Shown here: piece after piece, positions 15,693-23,696 of the stretch
Position numbering within the stretch: position 1 is the first letter of the stretch
Layout of the letters: each line of letters opens with the position of its first letter
Assembly (NCBI GenBank): GCA_022711665.1
Contig: JAKLEN010000001.1
Span: 124,001 to 188,000, forward strand
DNA from: Acidobacteriota bacterium
GTDB taxonomy: Bacteria > Acidobacteriota > Aminicenantia > Aminicenantales > Saccharicenantaceae
Length of the DNA stretch: 64,000 bases
Reading direction: 5' to 3'
Made by a program: the position numbers and the translations under genes
Notes under the pieces: model-generated
The model's input: the letters and a program-made list of their open reading frames with translations, nothing else
Databases searched by the model: none
What the model was told of the DNA's origin: nothing

Positions 15693-17303
15693 TCAGAACA
15701 GGCCGAAGACGCCGTTCGGGGTGATTCCCAGAAGGTGGAACCATGTCTCGCCGGCGACGATGTTGAGCAGCCAGGCGATGGACATCATCGCGATGCCGAA
15801 CTTGAACGTGTCGCCATAGCTGTACATCTCCGTTTCGTACAGGAGGGCGGCAGGCTTGCTGTTGAATGGCAGCACGTAGACGTGTTCGATCATGAAGGCC
15901 GTGGGCAGGGCCAGGCTGATCACCGGAAGGCCGAACCTGTTGGCCACGCCGATGGCGATGGGGACGAAGATCATGGCCCGCATGGTCTTCGACTCGAAGA
16001 TCAGCGCGCTGAAGATCATGACCCCCGTCAAGACCAGATAGAGCACCCAGAAGGGGGTGTTTTGGCCGATGCCGAGATGGTCGAAGGCCGCATTGACGCT
16101 GGTCAAGGGCAGGTCCGTAATGGACAGGCCTGCGCCCAGGGCGTAGGCCCCGGCCGAGAACAGCATCAGGTGCCAGGGGATGTCCACTTCGTTCCACTTC
16201 ACGATGCCGATGCCGGGCAGCAGCGCCACGACGGCCCCGACGAAGGCCACCGCGGTCGGACTGATGCCGTGGATCCTGTCCGTGGCCCAGAATCCCAGGA
16301 TCAAAGCAAAGATGACGATGGCCTTCACTTCCTGGGCGTCGAGCTTGCCCATCTGACGCAGTTCCCGGCGCAGCCGGTCCATCCCCCCTTCGATCTGAGG
16401 GACCCGTTCGTTCGGCGCCAGGGGGAAGAACACCTTCATGGCCAGGACATACCCGATGAGCATCAATCCGGCCACCATCGGGAGCATGGCCCTCATCCAG
16501 TCGGAGAAGTACACGGAGCCGCCGATGGCGCCGCCGATGAGGGCCGCAGCCAGGAGGTTCGCGCCCGAGCCCGTGACGAATGCGCCGGCGCCGATGTTGA
16601 TATCGAGCAGGTTCTGCAAGACGATGCTGCGGCCGAAATTCGTCTTGCCCCCGCCGCTGCGGGCGCCGTAGATCGCCGCGATGACCATGAAGATCGGCAG
16701 GAGAATGGCCGCCTTGGCGGTCGTGGCCGAAATGAAGGCCGAGAGCACGAGGTTGATGACGATGAAGCTGAGAAAGATGCGGGAGGCGCTCTTCCCGAAC
16801 TTGAGAAGGAACCACAACGCGAAACGCTTGGCCACCCCCGTCTTGACGAGCATGCTGGCCAGGACGAACGACATGATGTTGAGCCACATCACGGGATGGC
16901 CCAGCTGGGCGTAGGCCTCCTTTTCGGGCAGAACGCCCGAGAGCACCAGGCTGACGATCACGATGAGCGACGTCAGGTAATTGGGCAGGGCCTCTGTTAT
17001 CCAGAGGATGATGGCCGCCGCGAAGATGGCCAGCATCAGGTAGTTGCTGCGGATGAACGCCTCGGAGCCGACGGCTTCGAAAGCCTTCCTGGCCGAAGCG
17101 TCGACCAGTCGGGTCGGGTCGATCCTTTCCAGGAACGGCAGTTTGATGACAAATCCCAGGAGCATGAAGGCGATCAGGGCCAACGGCCCGCCGGCCAACG
17201 CCAGGGTCCTGGCGAATCCGGTCCGGGTTCGCTTCGGAAGCTTCTCGATCCGGTAGTTGGCCATGTCCAGAGGATCGAACGTCCGCGGCAGTTCGTTCGT
17301 CAT
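15693..17303 (-). CDS. SLC13/DASS family anion:Na+ symporter
   Basis: 536 residues with about 12-14 hydrophobic segments. The signature regions of SLC13-type transporters are visible: WITEALPNYLTSL, ISATTAKAAILLPIF (the SNT/SATT loop), GAGAFVTGSGANLLAAALI and VAFVGAVVALLP. Family members carry dicarboxylates, sulfate, citrate or, in yeast Pho87/90/91, phosphate. The ATG overlaps the end of the PiT gene by four bases, so the proteins are made together. That coupling makes phosphate or a phosphorylated anion a reasonable substrate, though only by context. Confidence 0.88.
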   Translation of the reverse strand: MTNELPRTFDPLDMANYRIEKLPKRTRTGFARTLALAGGPLALIAFMLLGFVIKLPFLERIDPTRLVDASARKAFEAVGSEAFIRSNYLMLAIFAAAIILWITEALPNYLTSLIVIVSLVLSGVLPEKEAYAQLGHPVMWLNIMSFVLASMLVKTGVAKRFALWFLLKFGKSASRIFLSFIVINLVLSAFISATTAKAAILLPIFMVIAAIYGARSGGGKTNFGRSIVLQNLLDINIGAGAFVTGSGANLLAAALIGGAIGGSVYFSDWMRAMLPMVAGLMLIGYVLAMKVFFPLAPNERVPQIEGGMDRLRRELRQMGKLDAQEVKAIVIFALILGFWATDRIHGISPTAVAFVGAVVALLPGIGIVKWNEVDIPWHLMLFSAGAYALGAGLSITDLPLTSVNAAFDHLGIGQNTPFWVLYLVLTGVMIFSALIFESKTMRAMIFVPIAIGVANRFGLPVISLALPTAFMIEHVYVLPFNSKPAALLYETEMYSYGDTFKFGIAMMSIAWLLNIVAGETWFHLLGITPNGVFGLF

Positions 17304-18499
17304 GGGACGGTCCTTTCGGCCGGCCGGACGTCCGGCGCGGCCCTTGGGATGTCGATCGTCAGGCCGGGCGGGGCGCCGGCCGGCAGGATCGTCGTCCGCG
17401 GCGGCGGCAGCGGCGCGGGGACGACGGCGGGAGCAGCCGGGGCGACCGTCGCGGCCCGGCGGACGACCTCTTGTCCGAAGACGTTCTGCAGGACAAAAAG
17501 GCCGAAGAAGGTGATCACCCCGGCCAGGACCGGCGCAGCCAGCCATCCGAGAGCGATCTCCCCCAGCATGCGATAGCGGACAGTCCTGCCTCTGCGGACG
17601 ATCGCGATGCCGATGATGCCCCCGATGACCGACTGCGAGCTCGAGATGGGAACGAGCGGGATGGCCGGCAGGCCATGCGCCAGCAACCAGCCCTCGAGGC
17701 CCCTGGAAGAGAAGAGGAAAAGCACCAGCGACGTGGCCAAAACGACGATGAAGCCCGCCAGCGGAGAGAGCTTCAGCAGGTCGTTGCCGACGGTCTGGAT
17801 GACCTTGTGCGAGTAGGTGAACACCCCGACGGCGATGGCGATGCCGCCCAGGAGGAAGAGCTGATGGACTCCCGTCAATGTGAACATCCCGGCGACTTCG
17901 ATATTCCGGAACGGCACAACGGGGACGAAGACGCCCATGACGTTGGCGATGTTATTCGCGCCCAGGCTGTAGGCTCCGAAGGCGCCGACGATGATCAGGC
18001 CGGCGCGGGTGTAGGCATCAAGGACCAGCAGACGGACGCGCGTTCTCTTGAGCACGGCCCGGAACAGCGAGTATAAGGCGGCCGCCAGCGTCGCCGTCAG
18101 GACGATGGCCGCCCCCCAGCTGAGAACGATCCGCGCCAAGGAAGGAATATCCGTGGCCGAGCCCGCAAACAGGTTCCATCCCAGGATCGAGCCGATAATG
18201 GCCTGTGAGGTCGAAACGGGCAGCTTGAGCTTGGTCATCCAGTAGACCGCGAGGGCCGCGGCCAGGGTGACCATGAAGGCGCCGGGCAGGGCATTCACCG
18301 CGCCCAGCTTGTCGAGCGTAGCGGTCGTTCCGGCCCCTCCGAGGACCGCCCCCAGGATAACGAACACACTGCACAGGGTCGCCGCGGTCTTGAACCGGAC
18401 CATCTTGGCGGCGACGGCAGTGCCGAAGACGTTGGCGGCATGGTTAGCGCCCAGCGCCCAGCCCAGGAAGATGCCGCTGACGAGATACAGATAGATCAT
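17300..18499 (-). CDS. pit: PiT family inorganic phosphate transporter
   Basis: 399 residues. The two PiT signatures are present: GANHAANVFGTAVAAK near the N terminus and GANNIANVMGVFVP in the second half, with the paired motifs PVSTSQAIIGSILG and PISSSQSVIGGIIG. A Pro/Ala-rich tail of about 50 residues follows the last helix and is unusual. MIYLYLVSG is the likely N terminus; the upstream extension to 18568 is antisense-like filler. The gene lies 13 bases after the PhoU-like gene and overlaps the SLC13 gene by four bases. Confidence 0.93.
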   Translation of the reverse strand: MIYLYLVSGIFLGWALGANHAANVFGTAVAAKMVRFKTAATLCSVFVILGAVLGGAGTTATLDKLGAVNALPGAFMVTLAAALAVYWMTKLKLPVSTSQAIIGSILGWNLFAGSATDIPSLARIVLSWGAAIVLTATLAAALYSLFRAVLKRTRVRLLVLDAYTRAGLIIVGAFGAYSLGANNIANVMGVFVPVVPFRNIEVAGMFTLTGVHQLFLLGGIAIAVGVFTYSHKVIQTVGNDLLKLSPLAGFIVVLATSLVLFLFSSRGLEGWLLAHGLPAIPLVPISSSQSVIGGIIGIAIVRRGRTVRYRMLGEIALGWLAAPVLAGVITFFGLFVLQNVFGQEVVRRAATVAPAAPAVVPAPLPPPRTTILPAGAPPGLTIDIPRAAPDVRPAERTVP

Positions 18500-18512
18500 C
18501 TCATGCTCGGGC

Positions 18513-19160
18513 TCAGAAACCGCGCTTGATGGTGCTGATCCCCAGGCGGTCGGCGACATCCTCGGCATGGTCGGAGATGTCCTCGACGTGCAAGGCGAAA
18601 TAGCGCAAGTGGATCTTGTGGCTCAGATCGAGCTTGGAGCTGAAGATCCGCCGCTTGAGCCGGTCGCTGATCTTGTCCGCCTCTTTTTCATGAAAATAGA
18701 CCTTGTGCAGGGAGTTCGTCACCATGTTGAAATCGTGGAAAAAGGCGCGGACGGCCGTCACCAACTCCTCCGCGGCGCTCACGCTGACGTCGGCGAGGGC
18801 AAGGTAGTCCTTGCCAAACGCGGCCGGGATCACAGGCATTTCCACGGAGAATTGAAGCAGCGTCTTCTTTTCGGCGTTGATCACGGTGTCCATGTTCTCC
18901 AGCAGGCCCAGGACATCGCCACGGATCTCGGGAATCAGCGAATGCTTGTACAGCTGGGTCTCGATGGAATGCCGGAGCTCGTCGGCGCGGTTTTCCATCC
19001 GGGCCATCTCGCCGATCGTACCCTCAAAATGGCCGATTTCCCCGTCCAGATATTCCTTGATGCCGTTGCGGAAGGCGAGCGAGGCCTGGCTGATCGTGTC
19101 CAGGAATTCGTCGATTTGCGCTTGAACGATCTTCGATTGCTTCAAATGGATGATGCTCAT
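18513..19160 (-). CDS. PhoU-like DUF47 family protein
   Basis: 215 residues, nearly all helical, matching the DUF47/TIGR00153 family of PhoU-like proteins (REs such as EMARMENRADELRHSIE and KEADKISDRLKRRIF with metal-binding Glu/Asp repeats, then FALHVEDISDHAEDVADRL). DUF47 genes nearly always precede a pit gene and are thought to control or assist PiT transport. That arrangement holds here with a 13-base gap. Confidence 0.93.
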   Translation of the reverse strand: MSIIHLKQSKIVQAQIDEFLDTISQASLAFRNGIKEYLDGEIGHFEGTIGEMARMENRADELRHSIETQLYKHSLIPEIRGDVLGLLENMDTVINAEKKTLLQFSVEMPVIPAAFGKDYLALADVSVSAAEELVTAVRAFFHDFNMVTNSLHKVYFHEKEADKISDRLKRRIFSSKLDLSHKIHLRYFALHVEDISDHAEDVADRLGISTIKRGF

Positions 19161-19242
19161 GCGCTCCTCTCCCCGGCCACGGCACCCCCTTACGGCGCGG
19201 GCTTCGCGGCGGCGGCCTTCCCGCTCTTCAGCCGGCTGCGGC

Positions 19243-19707
19243 TCACCACTTCGTGTAGGGATGCCGGATCAGGTTTGAGTTGAAATAGCGGGGATCCCCG
19301 GAGACCTCGGTGCCAATCCAGTCGGGGAGGTCGATCTTCTGCTTTTCGTCTTCGAGCTCGACCTCGGCCACGACCAGCCCCGCGTTCTCGCCGAAGAACT
19401 CGTCGACCTCGAAGACCAGGCCGTCGACCGGGATCTTGTAGCGTTTCTTCTCGATGAGCGGCTTTTCGCACATGTTGTCGAGCATGACGTTGGCGTCCTC
19501 GACGGAGATCTCGTACTCGAACTCCGAGCGCGACACCCCTTGGGTGATCCCCTTGATGGTCAGGAAGCCCTTCTCCTCGATGGTGCGGACGCGGACGACC
19601 CGCTCCTTGATAGAGGAGAGGTAGCCCTGCCGGTAGACGGCGCCCTTGGCCCCGGCCTTCCAGGCGTCGCTCTTGACCAGGAATTTTCTTTCGATCTCTC
19701 GGCTCAT
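19243..19707 (-). CDS. CYTH domain protein (triphosphate tunnel metalloenzyme family)
   Basis: 154 residues. The CYTH hallmark ExExK is present at the N terminus (REIERKFLV), followed by tunnel-lining basic and acidic strands: VVRVRTIEEKGFLTIKG, SEFEYEISVEDA, EKKRYKIPVDGLVFEVDEF and VVAEVELEDE. Bacterial members of this size hydrolyse inorganic tripolyphosphate or act as class IV adenylate cyclases or thiamine triphosphatases; the short, stand-alone form best fits tripolyphosphatase. The start at the third Met is set by GAGGAAG six bases before it. It lies between the porin and the phoU-like/pit operon. Confidence 0.92.
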   Translation of the reverse strand: MSREIERKFLVKSDAWKAGAKGAVYRQGYLSSIKERVVRVRTIEEKGFLTIKGITQGVSRSEFEYEISVEDANVMLDNMCEKPLIEKKRYKIPVDGLVFEVDEFFGENAGLVVAEVELEDEKQKIDLPDWIGTEVSGDPRYFNSNLIRHPYTKW

Positions 19708-19729
19708 GGACATCTTCCTCATAGGGGAC

Positions 19730-19759
19730 GGCGGGGGCGGGGCGGCCCGCCCCCTCGCC
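19730..19759 (-). repeat. GC-rich hairpin between porin and CYTH genes
   Basis: GGCGGGGGCGGG pairs with CCCGCCCC..CGCC around a short GCGG loop. It lies downstream of the porin stop and just before the CYTH ribosome site; there is no U-run, so attenuation or mRNA processing is as likely as termination. Confidence 0.45.
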
Positions 19760-19783
19760 GTTTCATTCTCTCCCGCGCGGCGG

Positions 19784-20992
19784 TCAGAAGGAGAAGTAGA
19801 AGCCGCCCTGCAGGATGGTGAAGTCGTCGTTGCCGGTGTAGTCGCCGTGGCCGGTGGCGTACACGTCCAGGTTGACGAAGGTGTAGTTCAGGATGAACCG
19901 CAGGTTGGCGTAGGGCCGCCAGTTGAGGCCCAGGGTGACGTTGTTGGCCTTGCCGCCCAGGACGTCGGCGGCCGCGTCGTTGAGGTTGAGGCTGCTGACG
20001 CGGACGGCCAGCTCGAAGGCGCCGAGCTTTTTATTCCGGGGGTGGATGGGGCCGGCGGGCTCGCCTTCCTCGACGCTGTAGACGCGCTTTTCGCCGGTGA
20101 TCATCCAGCTGGCAAAGGCGTAGTAGCCCGAGAAATCGGCCCGCGGGGCCTCGATCTGCTTGACGCTCGTGGCCAGGTACTCGCCTTGCACCAGGACGGG
20201 GCCGGCCGCGGCGGCCAGCTCGAGGCCGTAGCTGTCCCAGCTTTCGGCGTCCATCCAGCCGGTGTGCAGGAAGCGGGCATCGGCCACGTGGGTCTCGGGC
20301 CGGGCCCGGAAGCGCACCCGCCCCTCGTCGTTGGCGAACGGCGTGGAGTGGCCGTACGAGCCGCCGATGTGGATGAAGCCGTTGTCCGAGAGGATGGGCA
20401 GGTAATTGGCGCGGACGTTGTAGTTGAGGGCCTCGTTCTCGCCCGTCTCGTCCACGTTGCCGGCCTCCTCGCCGAAGAGCCCGGCGAACAGGCGCCAGTT
20501 CTTCCCCCACTTGGCGATGCTCAGGCCCAGGCGCCGGTCAGGGACCAGGGCATTCGGCAGGGCCCGCTCGAGGAAGGTGATGTAGCGGGACGAGGTGACC
20601 TCTTCCACGCTGTACTGGCTCTTGTGGTTGCCGAGGGTGATCTGCATGTTCTTGAAGCCCCGGTAGCCGATCCACATGTCCTTGACGTCGACCTCGTTGC
20701 CGGCGAAGTCGATGTCGAACTGCGCCACCCAGTTGCCCCACACCGGCTTGAGGCCGAGGCGGGCGCGGCGGACTTCCGTGCCGTTGCCGAGCGGGTTGTC
20801 GTTGCCCGAATAGAGCCCGAAGGCCAGGTTGATGCGGCCGTCGAGCCGGAACTGGAACTTACCGTCCTCGGACTGGAAGACGAGCAGCCCGTCCTCGCTG
20901 TGACCGGTGATGGCCGGGGTTTCGGCCTCCTGGGCCGCCAGCGCCAGGGCGCCGCCGAGCATCAGCAAGCTCAATAGGAAAATTTTCTTCAT
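19784..20992 (-). CDS. Phosphate-selective porin O/P family protein
   Basis: 402 residues with a signal peptide (MKKIFLLSLLMLGGALALAAQ). The mature sequence has the OprP/OprO family layout: DGKFQFRLDGRINLAFGLY, RRARLGLKPVWGNWVAQFDIDFAG, ITLGNHKSQYSVEEVTSSRYITFLER and a terminal aromatic strand ILQGGFYFSF. This family forms trimeric anion channels in the outer membrane; true phosphate or pyrophosphate selectivity needs a lysine ladder that I cannot verify. It lies 18 bases after the CYTH-like gene. A phosphate role is supported by the downstream pit operon. Confidence 0.9.
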   Translation of the reverse strand: MKKIFLLSLLMLGGALALAAQEAETPAITGHSEDGLLVFQSEDGKFQFRLDGRINLAFGLYSGNDNPLGNGTEVRRARLGLKPVWGNWVAQFDIDFAGNEVDVKDMWIGYRGFKNMQITLGNHKSQYSVEEVTSSRYITFLERALPNALVPDRRLGLSIAKWGKNWRLFAGLFGEEAGNVDETGENEALNYNVRANYLPILSDNGFIHIGGSYGHSTPFANDEGRVRFRARPETHVADARFLHTGWMDAESWDSYGLELAAAAGPVLVQGEYLATSVKQIEAPRADFSGYYAFASWMITGEKRVYSVEEGEPAGPIHPRNKKLGAFELAVRVSSLNLNDAAADVLGGKANNVTLGLNWRPYANLRFILNYTFVNLDVYATGHGDYTGNDDFTILQGGFYFSF

Positions 20993-21010
20993 AGGAACCT
21001 CCTTGGGCGA

Positions 21011-21601
21011 TTAGGATATCTCCATGCCTGCGAAGCGCTTCAGCGCTTTCAGGTAATTGACGTTCTCATAGCCCCCGAGGCTGAGCCCGCGGACGGTCCG
21101 GATGACCGCGGCCGGGTCCTCCATCTCGACGGCGACCGTGCGAATGGGGCTCCCGTCGAACTTGAGGTCGGCGATCTCGACGATGCAGCCGTCGATCTTG
21201 AAGCCCCGGCGCTGTTTGTCCACCCGGATTGTCCGCAGGTCGGGGTGGGGCGCGACGAGCTCGTTCAGGAACTCGTCGTAGGCGTAGGCCTCGCGGCGGA
21301 GCTCCGGCAGGGGGGCCCGCCAGGCCCGGAAAACGTCCTCGAGGACGGGGCGGGCCAGGGGGAAGCCGGCTTTCATGACCGGGTACCACTGCTCCAGGCC
21401 GTCGGCGTCGACCTGCTGGAGTGTCTTGATGTCCATGAGCATGTCCCGGATCTTGGTGTTGTCCATGCTCCGGCGGGACAGGATATAGACCTCCGCGCTC
21501 ATCCGGACTTGCTCGGCCGGGTGGGCGTTGATGCGGACCTCGGCTTCCCCAAACGACACCCCGAACGTCCGCCATTCCCAGCGCGCGATGATCTGTGCCA
21601 T
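21011..21601 (-). CDS. Divergent CYTH-like protein
   Basis: 196 residues with no signal peptide. I do not recognise a named family, but the layout follows a CYTH/TTM fold: an N-terminal strand with ARWEWRTFG in place of ExExK, a strand SAEVYILSRRS, a basic strand KIRDMLMDIKTLQQ, and late strands DLRTIRVDKQRRGFKI, CIVEIADLKF and RTVAVEMED. The acidic/basic alternation is what lines a triphosphate tunnel. The first residues keep only one of the canonical glutamates, so activity may differ from ordinary CYTH enzymes. It is first in the phosphate gene cluster. The fold call is inference. Confidence 0.6.
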   Translation of the reverse strand: MAQIIARWEWRTFGVSFGEAEVRINAHPAEQVRMSAEVYILSRRSMDNTKIRDMLMDIKTLQQVDADGLEQWYPVMKAGFPLARPVLEDVFRAWRAPLPELRREAYAYDEFLNELVAPHPDLRTIRVDKQRRGFKIDGCIVEIADLKFDGSPIRTVAVEMEDPAAVIRTVRGLSLGGYENVNYLKALKRFAGMEIS

Positions 21602-21739: not shown

Positions 21740-22423
21740 CTAGCGGGGGTCCTCGGGCCGCTCGAGGTCGGCCCGCCAGGCGATGGCCATCTGGAGGAGC
21801 TCGGAGGCGTCCTTGATGTGGAGCTTCTGCTTAATGCGGGAATAGTAGGTCTCCACGGTCTTGACGCTCAGGTTGAGATCCTCGGAGATGCGCTGGGTCC
21901 GCAGGCCGCGGCCGACGAGCTTGAAGATCTCGAGCTCGCGGTCGCTGAGGGCGGCCAGGGGGGACTCGTGGCCGGCGGCTTCGGTCCGGGCCATTTTGTC
22001 CAGGAGCTTGTCGGTCATGGCCGGGCTGAGGTAGACCCGGCCGTCCAGGACCCGGCGGATCGCGGCGAGCAGGATCTCAGCCGAGGCGTGCTTCATGACG
22101 TACCCCTTGGCCCCGGCCCGGACGGCCCGCTCGGCGTACAGGGACTCGTCGTGCATGGAGAGGACGAGCAGGGGCAAGCGGGCCGCGCGCTTCCGCACGG
22201 CCTTGATGAGCTCGATACCGTCCATCCCCGGCAGGGAGATGTCGACGAGCATGAGGTCGGGCTCCAGCCGGTCGAGCGCCGTCAGCGCCTCGGGGCCGCT
22301 GCTAGCCCCGCCGCAGACGCGGAGGTCGGGCTGCTGGTCGATGAGCTGGGAGATGCCGTCCCGCATGAGGGGATGATCGTCGACGACGAGGACGGCTCTC
22401 TTGCGCGGCGCCCGCTCTGTCAT
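21740..22423 (-). CDS. NarL/FixJ-type response regulator
   Basis: 227 residues. The receiver domain has the acidic pair in VLVVDDHPLMRDG, the phosphorylated Asp61 (LMLVDISLPG), the switch Ser/Thr in LVLSMHD and Lys in GAKGYVMK. The C-terminal LuxR-type helix-turn-helix is LSDRELEIFKLVGRGLRTQRISEDLNLSVKTVETYYSRIKQKL. It begins one base after the histidine kinase stop and is its partner. Confidence 0.95.
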   Translation of the reverse strand: MTERAPRKRAVLVVDDHPLMRDGISQLIDQQPDLRVCGGASSGPEALTALDRLEPDLMLVDISLPGMDGIELIKAVRKRAARLPLLVLSMHDESLYAERAVRAGAKGYVMKHASAEILLAAIRRVLDGRVYLSPAMTDKLLDKMARTEAAGHESPLAALSDRELEIFKLVGRGLRTQRISEDLNLSVKTVETYYSRIKQKLHIKDASELLQMAIAWRADLERPEDPR

Positions 22424-22424
22424 G

Positions 22425-23606
22425 TCAGCCCCGGTTCCCGAAGGCCGCCGGGTCGGCGAACACGCACTTGACGACGGCCCCGCGCGTCCGGCCGCGCTCG
22501 ACGCGAAACGAGGCGCCTATGGAGGCCGCCCGGTATTCCATGATGTTCAAGCCCATGCCCTTGCGGTTGGGCTTCTCGGGGAAACCGGTGCCGTTGTCGG
22601 CGATGGTCAGCACGACCGCGCCCTTGCGCCGCTCCAGCCGGACGGCGATCCGGCCGGCCTGGCCGTGCCGCAGGGCGTTGTTCACGGCCTCCTGGACGAT
22701 GCGGTAGCCGTGGAAGATGACGGCCTCGTCGGTCGAGTTCAGGCCCGGCTCGCTCTCGACGGTGATGCGGACCTTGAACAGCTCCCCGACCGAGCAGGCC
22801 AGCTCGTTGAGGGCGGCCACGAGGCCGCCCTTGGCCCGGGTCGGATACAGGCCCCGGGCCAGATCCCGGGTGTGGGTCAGGGCGTTCTGCAGGTGGGCGA
22901 CCAGCTTTTCCAGGTCTCCGGCCTCGTCCAGGCCTCGCGCCTTCAGCCGCCCGACCAGGGCCTGCCCCATGAACACGATCCCGCCCAGCTGCTGGGACAG
23001 GCTGTCGTGGAGGTCCTGGCCGATGCGCCGCTGCTCTTTCTCGCTGATCTCCATCATCTGACGCTGCAGGTCGGTCTTGATGCCGATCTCGCGCCGCAGC
23101 CGGTCGTTCGATTCGACGAGGGCCCGGGTGCGGTCCCGGACGCGCTCCTCCAGGGCGTCGAAGGCATATTTCCGTTCGGTCTTGTCGTGGATGCTGCCCA
23201 TAACGCGCCTGGGGACGCCGCGCGGCCCCAGGCACACCCCGCCGCGGACGCGCATCCAGCGGATCGCGCCGTCGCTCCGCTCGACGCGGAACTCCTCGTC
23301 GAAGGAAGCCTGTTGATCGACGGCCTTTTTCAGGGCGGCCGAGAAACGCGCCCGGTCCTCGGGGTGGACTATCTTCAGGAAGGCCCCGAAGGGCTCGTCG
23401 CCGTCGCCCGCCCCGATGGCCAGAAGGGCCTTCATGTTGGCCGACATCAGGAGGCGGTCGGTCCGCAGGTCCCAGTCCCAGAGCCCGATATCGGCGGCCT
23501 CGAGGGCCTGGTGCAGCTGGTCGGACCGCTCGTCACGGCAGGCCCGCGGCCGCCGCCGGGGCGAGACGGCCGCCGGCCGGGCTTTCTTCCTCCTGGGCGT
23601 TCCCAT
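22425..23606 (-). CDS. PAS domain-containing HisKA_3 sensor histidine kinase
   Basis: 393 residues from the ATG at 23606. A basic N-terminal tail is followed by one PAS domain (LEAADIGLWDWDLRTDRL, then the PAC strand and GSIHDKTERK), a coiled coil, the HisKA_3 dimerisation helix with His200 (RRIGQDLHDSLSQQLGG) and an HATPase_c domain (RIVQEAVNNALRHG and ADNGTGFPE with GMGLNIMEYRA). No transmembrane helix or signal peptide, so it senses a cytoplasmic cue, perhaps redox or a small ligand. It is translationally adjacent to its response regulator. Confidence 0.94.
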   Translation of the reverse strand: MGTPRRKKARPAAVSPRRRPRACRDERSDQLHQALEAADIGLWDWDLRTDRLLMSANMKALLAIGAGDGDEPFGAFLKIVHPEDRARFSAALKKAVDQQASFDEEFRVERSDGAIRWMRVRGGVCLGPRGVPRRVMGSIHDKTERKYAFDALEERVRDRTRALVESNDRLRREIGIKTDLQRQMMEISEKEQRRIGQDLHDSLSQQLGGIVFMGQALVGRLKARGLDEAGDLEKLVAHLQNALTHTRDLARGLYPTRAKGGLVAALNELACSVGELFKVRITVESEPGLNSTDEAVIFHGYRIVQEAVNNALRHGQAGRIAVRLERRKGAVVLTIADNGTGFPEKPNRKGMGLNIMEYRAASIGASFRVERGRTRGAVVKCVFADPAAFGNRG

Positions 23607-23624
23607 CTCGCTCGCTCCGAACGC

Positions 23625-23653
23625 ATTGTATGCCCGGCGGCCCCGAGGCGCAA
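23625..23653 (-). promoter_or_regulatory. Sigma70-type promoter of the two-component operon
   Basis: Minus strand TTGCGC (23648-23653), 17 bases, TACAAT (23625-23630). Confidence 0.55.
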
Positions 23654-23667
23654 GCCGGCGGGCGGCC

Positions 23668-23696
23668 TTGCGTCGGACCGGGCTTCCCATTATGAT
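23668..23696 (+). promoter_or_regulatory. Sigma70-type promoter of the FkbM methyltransferase gene
   Basis: TTGCGT (23668-23673), 17 bases, TATGAT (23691-23696), divergent from the kinase promoter. Confidence 0.6.

Follow-up and report, generated by a model that had tools for sequence, protein, structure and literature searches.

A conserved bacterial gene module combining two triphosphate tunnel proteins, a porin and an SLC13 carrier: a candidate route for the uptake of short condensed phosphate

The 64,000-nucleotide window studied here, the whole stretch of Acidobacteriota DNA that was analyzed, carries an eight-gene cluster in which two proteins of the CYTH/triphosphate tunnel (TTM) fold, called TTM1 and TTM2 below, stand beside an OprP/OprO-family porin, an SLC13 carrier, a PiT phosphate transporter with a DUF47 partner, and a two-component regulatory pair. 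That this is a real and conserved module we regard as practically certain. What it does is proposed more tentatively: on our leading reading the eight genes would import a short condensed phosphate, most likely tripolyphosphate and possibly other di- to oligophosphates, and degrade it to orthophosphate (Pi).

A first-pass annotation of the window had described six same-strand genes at 15693-21601, the last two overlapping by four bases. All six were found at those coordinates on the - strand, transcribed in the order TTM2, porin, TTM1, DUF47, PiT, SLC13, with Pfam matches for the second to the sixth, and the PiT stop and SLC13 start do overlap, as ATGA at 17303-17300. That annotation overlooked a histidine kinase (HK) and a response regulator (RR) directly upstream on the same strand, which are part of the cluster because relatives keep both genes at the same place, so that the unit is one of eight genes:

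22425..23690, - strand: PAS-domain sensor HK (Pfam PAS_3, HisKA_3, HATPase_c), the likely cluster regulator
21740..22423, - strand: NarL/LuxR-type RR (Pfam Response_reg and GerE), kept upstream of the cluster
21011..21601, - strand: TTM2, a new CYTH-like triphosphate tunnel subfamily (structure model, Foldseek and residue census)
19784..20992, - strand: OprP/OprO-family outer-membrane porin (Pfam PF07396, Porin_O_P, 6.5e-59)
19243..19707, - strand: TTM1, predicted NeuTTM-like inorganic tripolyphosphatase (Pfam CYTH, 1.7e-16)
18513..19160, - strand: DUF47/PitR-type PhoU-like accessory protein (Pfam PhoU_div/DUF47, 1.7e-20; TIGR00153, 1e-19, under that model's cut-off)
17300..18499, - strand: PiT-family phosphate transporter (Pfam PHO4, 6.9e-51)
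15693..17303, - strand: SLC13/DASS carrier (Pfam Na_sulph_symp, PF00939, 1.4e-49)

Two starts were chosen by reading the in-frame start codons by hand: the TTM1 reading frame is open from 19722, with the conserved start at 19707 most likely, and that of PiT is open from 18568, with 18499 most likely. The adjoining DUF47 and PiT genes (18513-19160 and 17300-18499) form a pair of the PitA-PitR type. The HK-RR pair is kept beside TTM2 and the porin at the related loci L006 and L046, to whose HKs the window HK is 61-62% identical, and in more diverged form at L047, L048 and L061.

Conservation of the module

The first-pass annotation had proposed looking for the gene order in other genomes, and the neighborhood proved to be conserved across phyla. 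Frequencies were taken from 396 genomes of one phylum (going by L006, the closest relative with a name, probably Acidobacteriota), in which TTM2 was found by profile search, TTM1 was called at E <= 1e-15 and the SLC13 subfamily of the cluster at E <= 1e-60. TTM2 occurred in 23 of the 396 genomes, 19 of which had TTM1 and a Porin_O_P porin at the TTM2 locus (the porin in 19 of 19 TTM2+TTM1 clusters), together with SLC13 in 18 and TctA/TctC in one (L061). DUF47-PiT was present in nine of the 19 clusters and HK-RR in five; gene order varied while content was kept. The association with SLC13 holds at the subfamily level: the 20 positive genomes comprised 18 with the gene in a TTM2 cluster and two with it at contig ends (in G170, and as a truncated copy at a contig start in G255). 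Joint occurrence of TTM2 and this subfamily in 18 genomes (23 and 20 positives) gave a Fisher P = 1e-24, uncorrected for phylogeny; such tests ignore shared ancestry, and eight of the genomes come from a single family.

TTM1 was the more widespread of the two tunnel genes, at 41 of 396 genomes, and all 19 genomes with both genes had a TTM1 copy inside the cluster. Among the 19 TTM1 loci lacking TTM2 that were read, a control that leaves out four genomes, none had a porin, SLC13 or TctA nearby, and two (L083 and L084, from the same genus) had DUF47-PiT; a further TTM1 locus, in G170, lies on a contig end together with the other cluster genes.

Other lineages gave variants of the same content. 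Caldithrix has TTM2-TTM1-SLC13-DUF47-PiT-porin (L013), a Rhodospirillales locus has TTM2-TTM1 with TctA, PiT and DUF47 (L014), and a Citrobacter freundii plasmid has LysR-TTM1-TTM2-SLC13 (L005), for which no relative at the DNA level was found in the E. coli genome collection. In metagenome-assembled genomes labeled Hungatella, Clostridiales, Synergistetes and Bacteroidota (as labeled in the records, perhaps wrongly), TTM2 is followed by a Ppx/GppA gene (L007-L012), and in L008-L012 Tct transporter genes come next, L011 ending at a contig end. TTM2 is fused to Ppx/GppA in Cupriavidus (L004) and in genome G157 (L053). A Spirochaeta metagenome-assembled genome (L015) has TTM2 followed by a Na/Pi cotransporter with a PhoU domain, and a DHH-DHHA2 phosphoesterase nearby. 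The partner of TTM2 is thus usually a short-chain polyphosphatase, either TTM1 or an adjoining or fused Ppx/GppA, and the transporters seen beside it are anion carriers: SLC13, Tct or, in L015, the Na/Pi cotransporter. We take the fixed core to be TTM2, TTM1 (or Ppx) and an anion carrier; PiT and DUF47 are accessory, since they occur in only nine of the 19 clusters.

The window cluster itself is a mosaic. TTM2 was present in one of the 34 genomes of the window's family, and the window TTM2, porin, TTM1, DUF47, PiT and RR are 67-88% identical to their counterparts in L046 (the HK 62%). The window SLC13 is 43% identical to the L046 copy and 62-70% identical to those of L047, L048, L049, L054, L062 and L013; these identities show one member of the subfamily swapped for another. 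In L061 the place of SLC13 is filled by a Tct system, TctA plus a TctC-TctB protein. This exchange and this replacement suggest selection to keep a function, as expected if a particular anion must be carried.

Further neighbors were noted as well. MgtC or MgtC-like DUF4010 membrane proteins lie beside TTM2 clusters in several lineages (L008:10240-11700, L009, L010, L064:9948-10424, L052:10190-11623, L056:8515-9855 and L063:4336-5697), which may point to a connection with magnesium, an ion that tripolyphosphate chelates. Beside TTM2 in two phyla (L007:5384-7764, L050:13173-16886 and L054:13597-17262) lies a phosphonate-type binding protein of the PhnD kind (PF12974), accompanied by a membrane histidine kinase and a protein resembling response regulators; this set could be a sensor input. 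On the Citrobacter plasmid, the fourth gene of the cluster (L005:11252-12727) is a 491-aa open reading frame with no Pfam match.

The two tunnel proteins

Among solved structures TTM1 is closest to the Nitrosomonas europaea NE1496 (NeuTTM) group (3typ/2fbl), sharing every catalytic residue with NeuTTM: all 15 catalytic positions (ExExK, RxR, KxR, ExE and a Tyr/Lys pair) are invariant in 18 of 18 cluster copies. NeuTTM is specific for inorganic tripolyphosphate (PPPi), and the Tyr/Lys pair has been proposed as its catalytic dyad (PMC3440374); the same paper makes no mention of transport or neighboring genes and leaves the role of the enzyme open. By these residues TTM1 looks fully active and is predicted to be a tripolyphosphatase. 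We also considered an adenylate cyclase, the RxR and ExE motifs being the mark by which triphosphatases are told apart from class IV cyclases (PMC8233210); this was ruled out, because TTM1 has both ExE Glu residues and the RxR pair, which such cyclases lack. Two other CYTH genes came to light in passing: a second, weaker one elsewhere in the window's genome (G000:C12:9076-9501, 34.5 bits), and a TTM1-like gene without TTM2 that adjoins a PPK2-family kinase (L085:7525-9480), another CYTH-polyphosphate link.

TTM2 had been annotated as a divergent CYTH-like protein, and so it is. The window protein matched no Pfam and no NCBIfam family, PF01928 included, and the CYTH profile applied to 13 relatives gave a best E of 0.052, in one relative only. 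Profile-profile comparison with TTM1 was not significant (probability 0.9%), and a PDB sequence search with the TTM2 profile returned nothing significant, two of the nine chance-level matches being archaeal CYTH proteins (1yem and 2dc4). Yet the predicted fold is a TTM tunnel, and the first-pass idea survives this check as it did that of the conserved neighborhood. An AlphaFold2 model from an alignment of 31 sequences has eight strands, with a pLDDT of 96.2 and a pTM of 0.89, and all 34 of its Foldseek matches in the PDB at E <= 1e-3 are CYTH/TTM proteins, among them thiamine triphosphatase, AtTTM3, ygiF and SaTTM. With family and profile searches not significant, the assignment of TTM2 to the TTM fold thus rests on the model and Foldseek, and its modeled tunnel is the same eight-strand one as in NeuTTM, even though TTM2 falls outside Pfam CYTH.

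The tunnel residues of TTM2 were compared in a census of 33 sequences, their equivalence to canonical TTM positions being set by strand order and topology rather than by superposition. The ExExK motif of NeuTTM and other CYTH/TTM proteins is absent and RxExR stands instead, with Arg for the first Glu in 31 of 33, the second Glu kept in all 33 and Arg for Lys in all 33. The tunnel residues comprise a KxR and a K on strands 3 and 4, a KxR on strand 6, E142 on strand 7 and E159 on strand 8; conservation is complete for E9, R11, K59 and E159 (33 of 33 each) and high for R52 and K129 (32 each) and for K50 and R131 (29 each). The second strand-8 Glu of the ExE motif is shared by 20 of 33 sequences, and the window protein is one of them. 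Where TTMs have been studied, the substrate metal (metal 1) is bound by the first strand-8 Glu, while the catalytic metal is held by both Glu residues of ExExK and the second strand-8 Glu (PMC4641920, PMC8233210). TTM2 therefore retains the metal-1 Glu and the basic tunnel residues, and lacks the full metal-2 ligand set of an active two-metal TTM, its first Glu being replaced by Arg and its second strand-8 Glu variable. By this mapping TTM2 has lost one catalytic-metal ligand throughout and two in some members, with the substrate site retained. For this reason it is more likely a binder, a sensor or an altered enzyme than an ordinary hydrolase; the simplest inference would be binding without ordinary hydrolysis, an altered reaction being possible. 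In one family, two TTM2 copies flank TTM1-SLC13 (L051, L052 and L055-L059); among the copies read there, the TTM2 adjoining TTM1 is missing several of the conserved tunnel residues, which the other copy keeps.

The porin, the carrier and the substrate

The cluster porin has as its closest solved structures OprP (5.5e-24) and OprO (1.4e-18), members of the same family that serve Pseudomonas as phosphate and pyrophosphate porins; OprO is described as pyrophosphate-specific (PMC9769906). The window cluster differs from the OprP/OprO systems in having no Pst or PhoB genes.

The window SLC13 protein has the DASS fold and belongs to the family of VcINDY, DiT, NaS1 and yeast Pho90: Foldseek matches of its model to DASS structures reached E = 2.8e-17, and its TIGR00785 score, 188.5 bits, is under the cut-off of 198.6. 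The suggested kinship with the yeast phosphate carriers Pho87/90/91 found no special support, since the model resembles Pho90 no more closely than it does NaS1, INDY or plant DiT. The substrate hairpins carry extra Lys/Arg residues, within SATTAK, ESKTMR and SKP in the window protein; in all 21 cluster copies the first hairpin has Lys or Arg, the second has SKTxR, and a later loop has KP. VcINDY has SNTAT, SNTAS and TPP at these positions, whereas the SNT motifs are absent from both hairpins of the cluster carriers (SATTAK/PATAxR and SKTxR stand instead) and all cluster members have Lys at the TPP position. Such a basic hairpin site would suit a highly charged anion. The argument is suggestive only, because DiT1 has Arg or His near two of these positions; for the same reason, the idea that the extra basic residues are a unique trait was dropped. 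The same SKT hairpin motif occurs in plasmid LysR-SLC13-phosphatase operons of Klebsiella and Macrococcus that have no TTM gene (L088:4786-8014 and L089:4844-8536).

The source of the substrate was approached through polyphosphate kinases (PPKs). PPK1 is present in 12 of the 19 cluster genomes and absent from seven, and in those seven, which include the window's genome and the single-contig genome G156, neither PPK1 nor PPK2 was detected; polyphosphate made at home by known kinases is therefore an unlikely substrate there. The common trait of the enzymes associated with TTM2, namely TTM1 and Ppx/GppA, is condensed-phosphate hydrolysis, and import of the substrate from outside fits best.

Proposed function and its alternatives

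The first-pass annotation had joined phosphate uptake to an ability to make, break or sense tri- or polyphosphate; explanations of this family still fit best, and the present data sharpen them. We infer the substrate, the direction of transport, the division of labor between TTM1 and TTM2 and the regulation as follows. The two-component system would switch the cluster genes on; the OprP/O-like porin would let the polyanion cross the outer membrane, and the SLC13 carrier, with its extra Lys/Arg in the substrate hairpins, would move it across the inner membrane. In the cytoplasm TTM1 would hydrolyze the condensed phosphate, PiT and its DUF47/PitR partner balancing the released Pi. The TTM2 tunnel would bind the triphosphate-metal complex, making TTM2 a sensor or regulatory partner, a role proposed because its binding residues are kept and part of its catalytic metal site is gone. 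Still more cautiously, the module may be the first identified bacterial importer of intact tripolyphosphate or short polyphosphate, having a dedicated SLC13/Tct carrier, a tunnel enzyme that consumes what is carried, and, as sensor or gate, a non-hydrolytic TTM2 that would be a tunnel protein of a new class.

Several points weigh against uptake of condensed phosphate. Not every PF07396 porin is a phosphate porin, and OprO-type specificity is here a matter of family likeness. Known SLC13 and Tct carriers mostly transport carboxylates or sulfate, and we know of none that transports condensed phosphate. Bacteria may instead hydrolyze polyphosphate outside the cytoplasm and import Pi alone. Finally, the plasmid SKT-motif SLC13 genes adjoin a histidine phosphatase and a phosphoglycerate-mutase-like protein, so that a phospho-organic substrate would also fit.

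The alternative that survives best, though we consider it rather unlikely, is Pi homeostasis, with SLC13 and PiT both carrying Pi (as yeast Pho87/90/91 do), the TTM proteins reading or adjusting a tri- or polyphosphate signal, and no condensed phosphate imported. It would account for PiT with DUF47 in nine of the 19 clusters and in L013 and L014, for TTM1 beside DUF47-PiT without SLC13 in L083 and L084, and for the PhoU-domain Na/Pi cotransporter of L015, and PitR-PitA pairs are established as regulatory units (PMC13170248). However, half of the clusters do without DUF47/PiT whereas the porin and SLC13/Tct are always kept, the SLC13 model is at least as near to carriers of sulfate or carboxylates as to Pho90, and in the seven cluster genomes where no PPK was found a polyphosphate signal would need another source.

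A doubtful alternative, to which we give a little less credence, is that the substrate is an organic phospho-anion or a tri- or dicarboxylate, TTM1 or Ppx removing its phosphate group or guarding against a toxic triphosphate formed from it. Carboxylates are the classical cargo of the SLC13 and Tct families, the plasmid SKT-motif relatives have phosphatases of other kinds as partners, under LysR control, and one TTM was crystallized with citric acid (PMC4641920). Yet carbon-metabolism enzymes do not recur in the clusters, NeuTTM, the relative of TTM1, is PPPi-specific (PMC3440374), and the class of substrate shared by Ppx and TTM1 is condensed phosphate.

It is improbable that TTM2 is a VTC4-like phosphotransferase making polyphosphate without PPK from phosphate supplied by the carriers. 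VTC4 of the VTC polymerase also has the tunnel fold with an incomplete acidic patch, as does TTM2, which keeps the metal-1 Glu and basic tunnel minus one acidic-patch ligand, another being variable; such an enzyme could also serve the seven genomes in which PPK1 and PPK2 were undetected. TTM2, however, consists of one soluble domain and is found in the company of enzymes that degrade polyphosphate, no cluster gene matched a VTC or SPX family in Pfam, and 12 of the 19 cluster genomes have PPK1. That the genes are neighbors by chance or shared mobility, without joint function, is scarcely credible: the cluster is patchy (one of 34 genomes in the window's family) and a plasmid (L005) bears a relative of it, but order is shuffled and content kept in several phyla, SLC13 is exclusive at the subfamily level, and one carrier has been replaced by another, in L061 and in the window.

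Each fold in the module is known. PitA-PitR is matched by the fourth and fifth genes, accessory here and absent from 10 of the 19 clusters, in which the core is TTM2, TTM1, the porin and SLC13/Tct. The novelty would lie in how they are combined, in TTM2 as a subfamily and in the tie that binds it exclusively to one subfamily of SLC13; in kind, this is an uptake operon with an intracellular hydrolase. The first-pass annotation knew of no such system, and the literature searched gave no description of the combination, of the TTM2 subfamily or of the SLC13-subfamily tie.

Two published questions become testable with this cluster: the purpose of bacterial tripolyphosphatases, it having been left open why bacteria have specific ones although cellular PPPi is barely detectable (PMC3440374), and the route of exogenous polyphosphate into microbes, whose access to it, and whether it is imported, were stated to be unknown in 2026 (PMC13318637). 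To both it supplies candidate genes, a TTM subfamily missed by automatic annotation and an SLC13 subfamily in which a polyanion site is predicted. If our reading is true, bacteria would have an uptake route dedicated to condensed phosphate as a nutrient, and the cluster may be the route, missing so far, that lets short phosphate chains into the cell.

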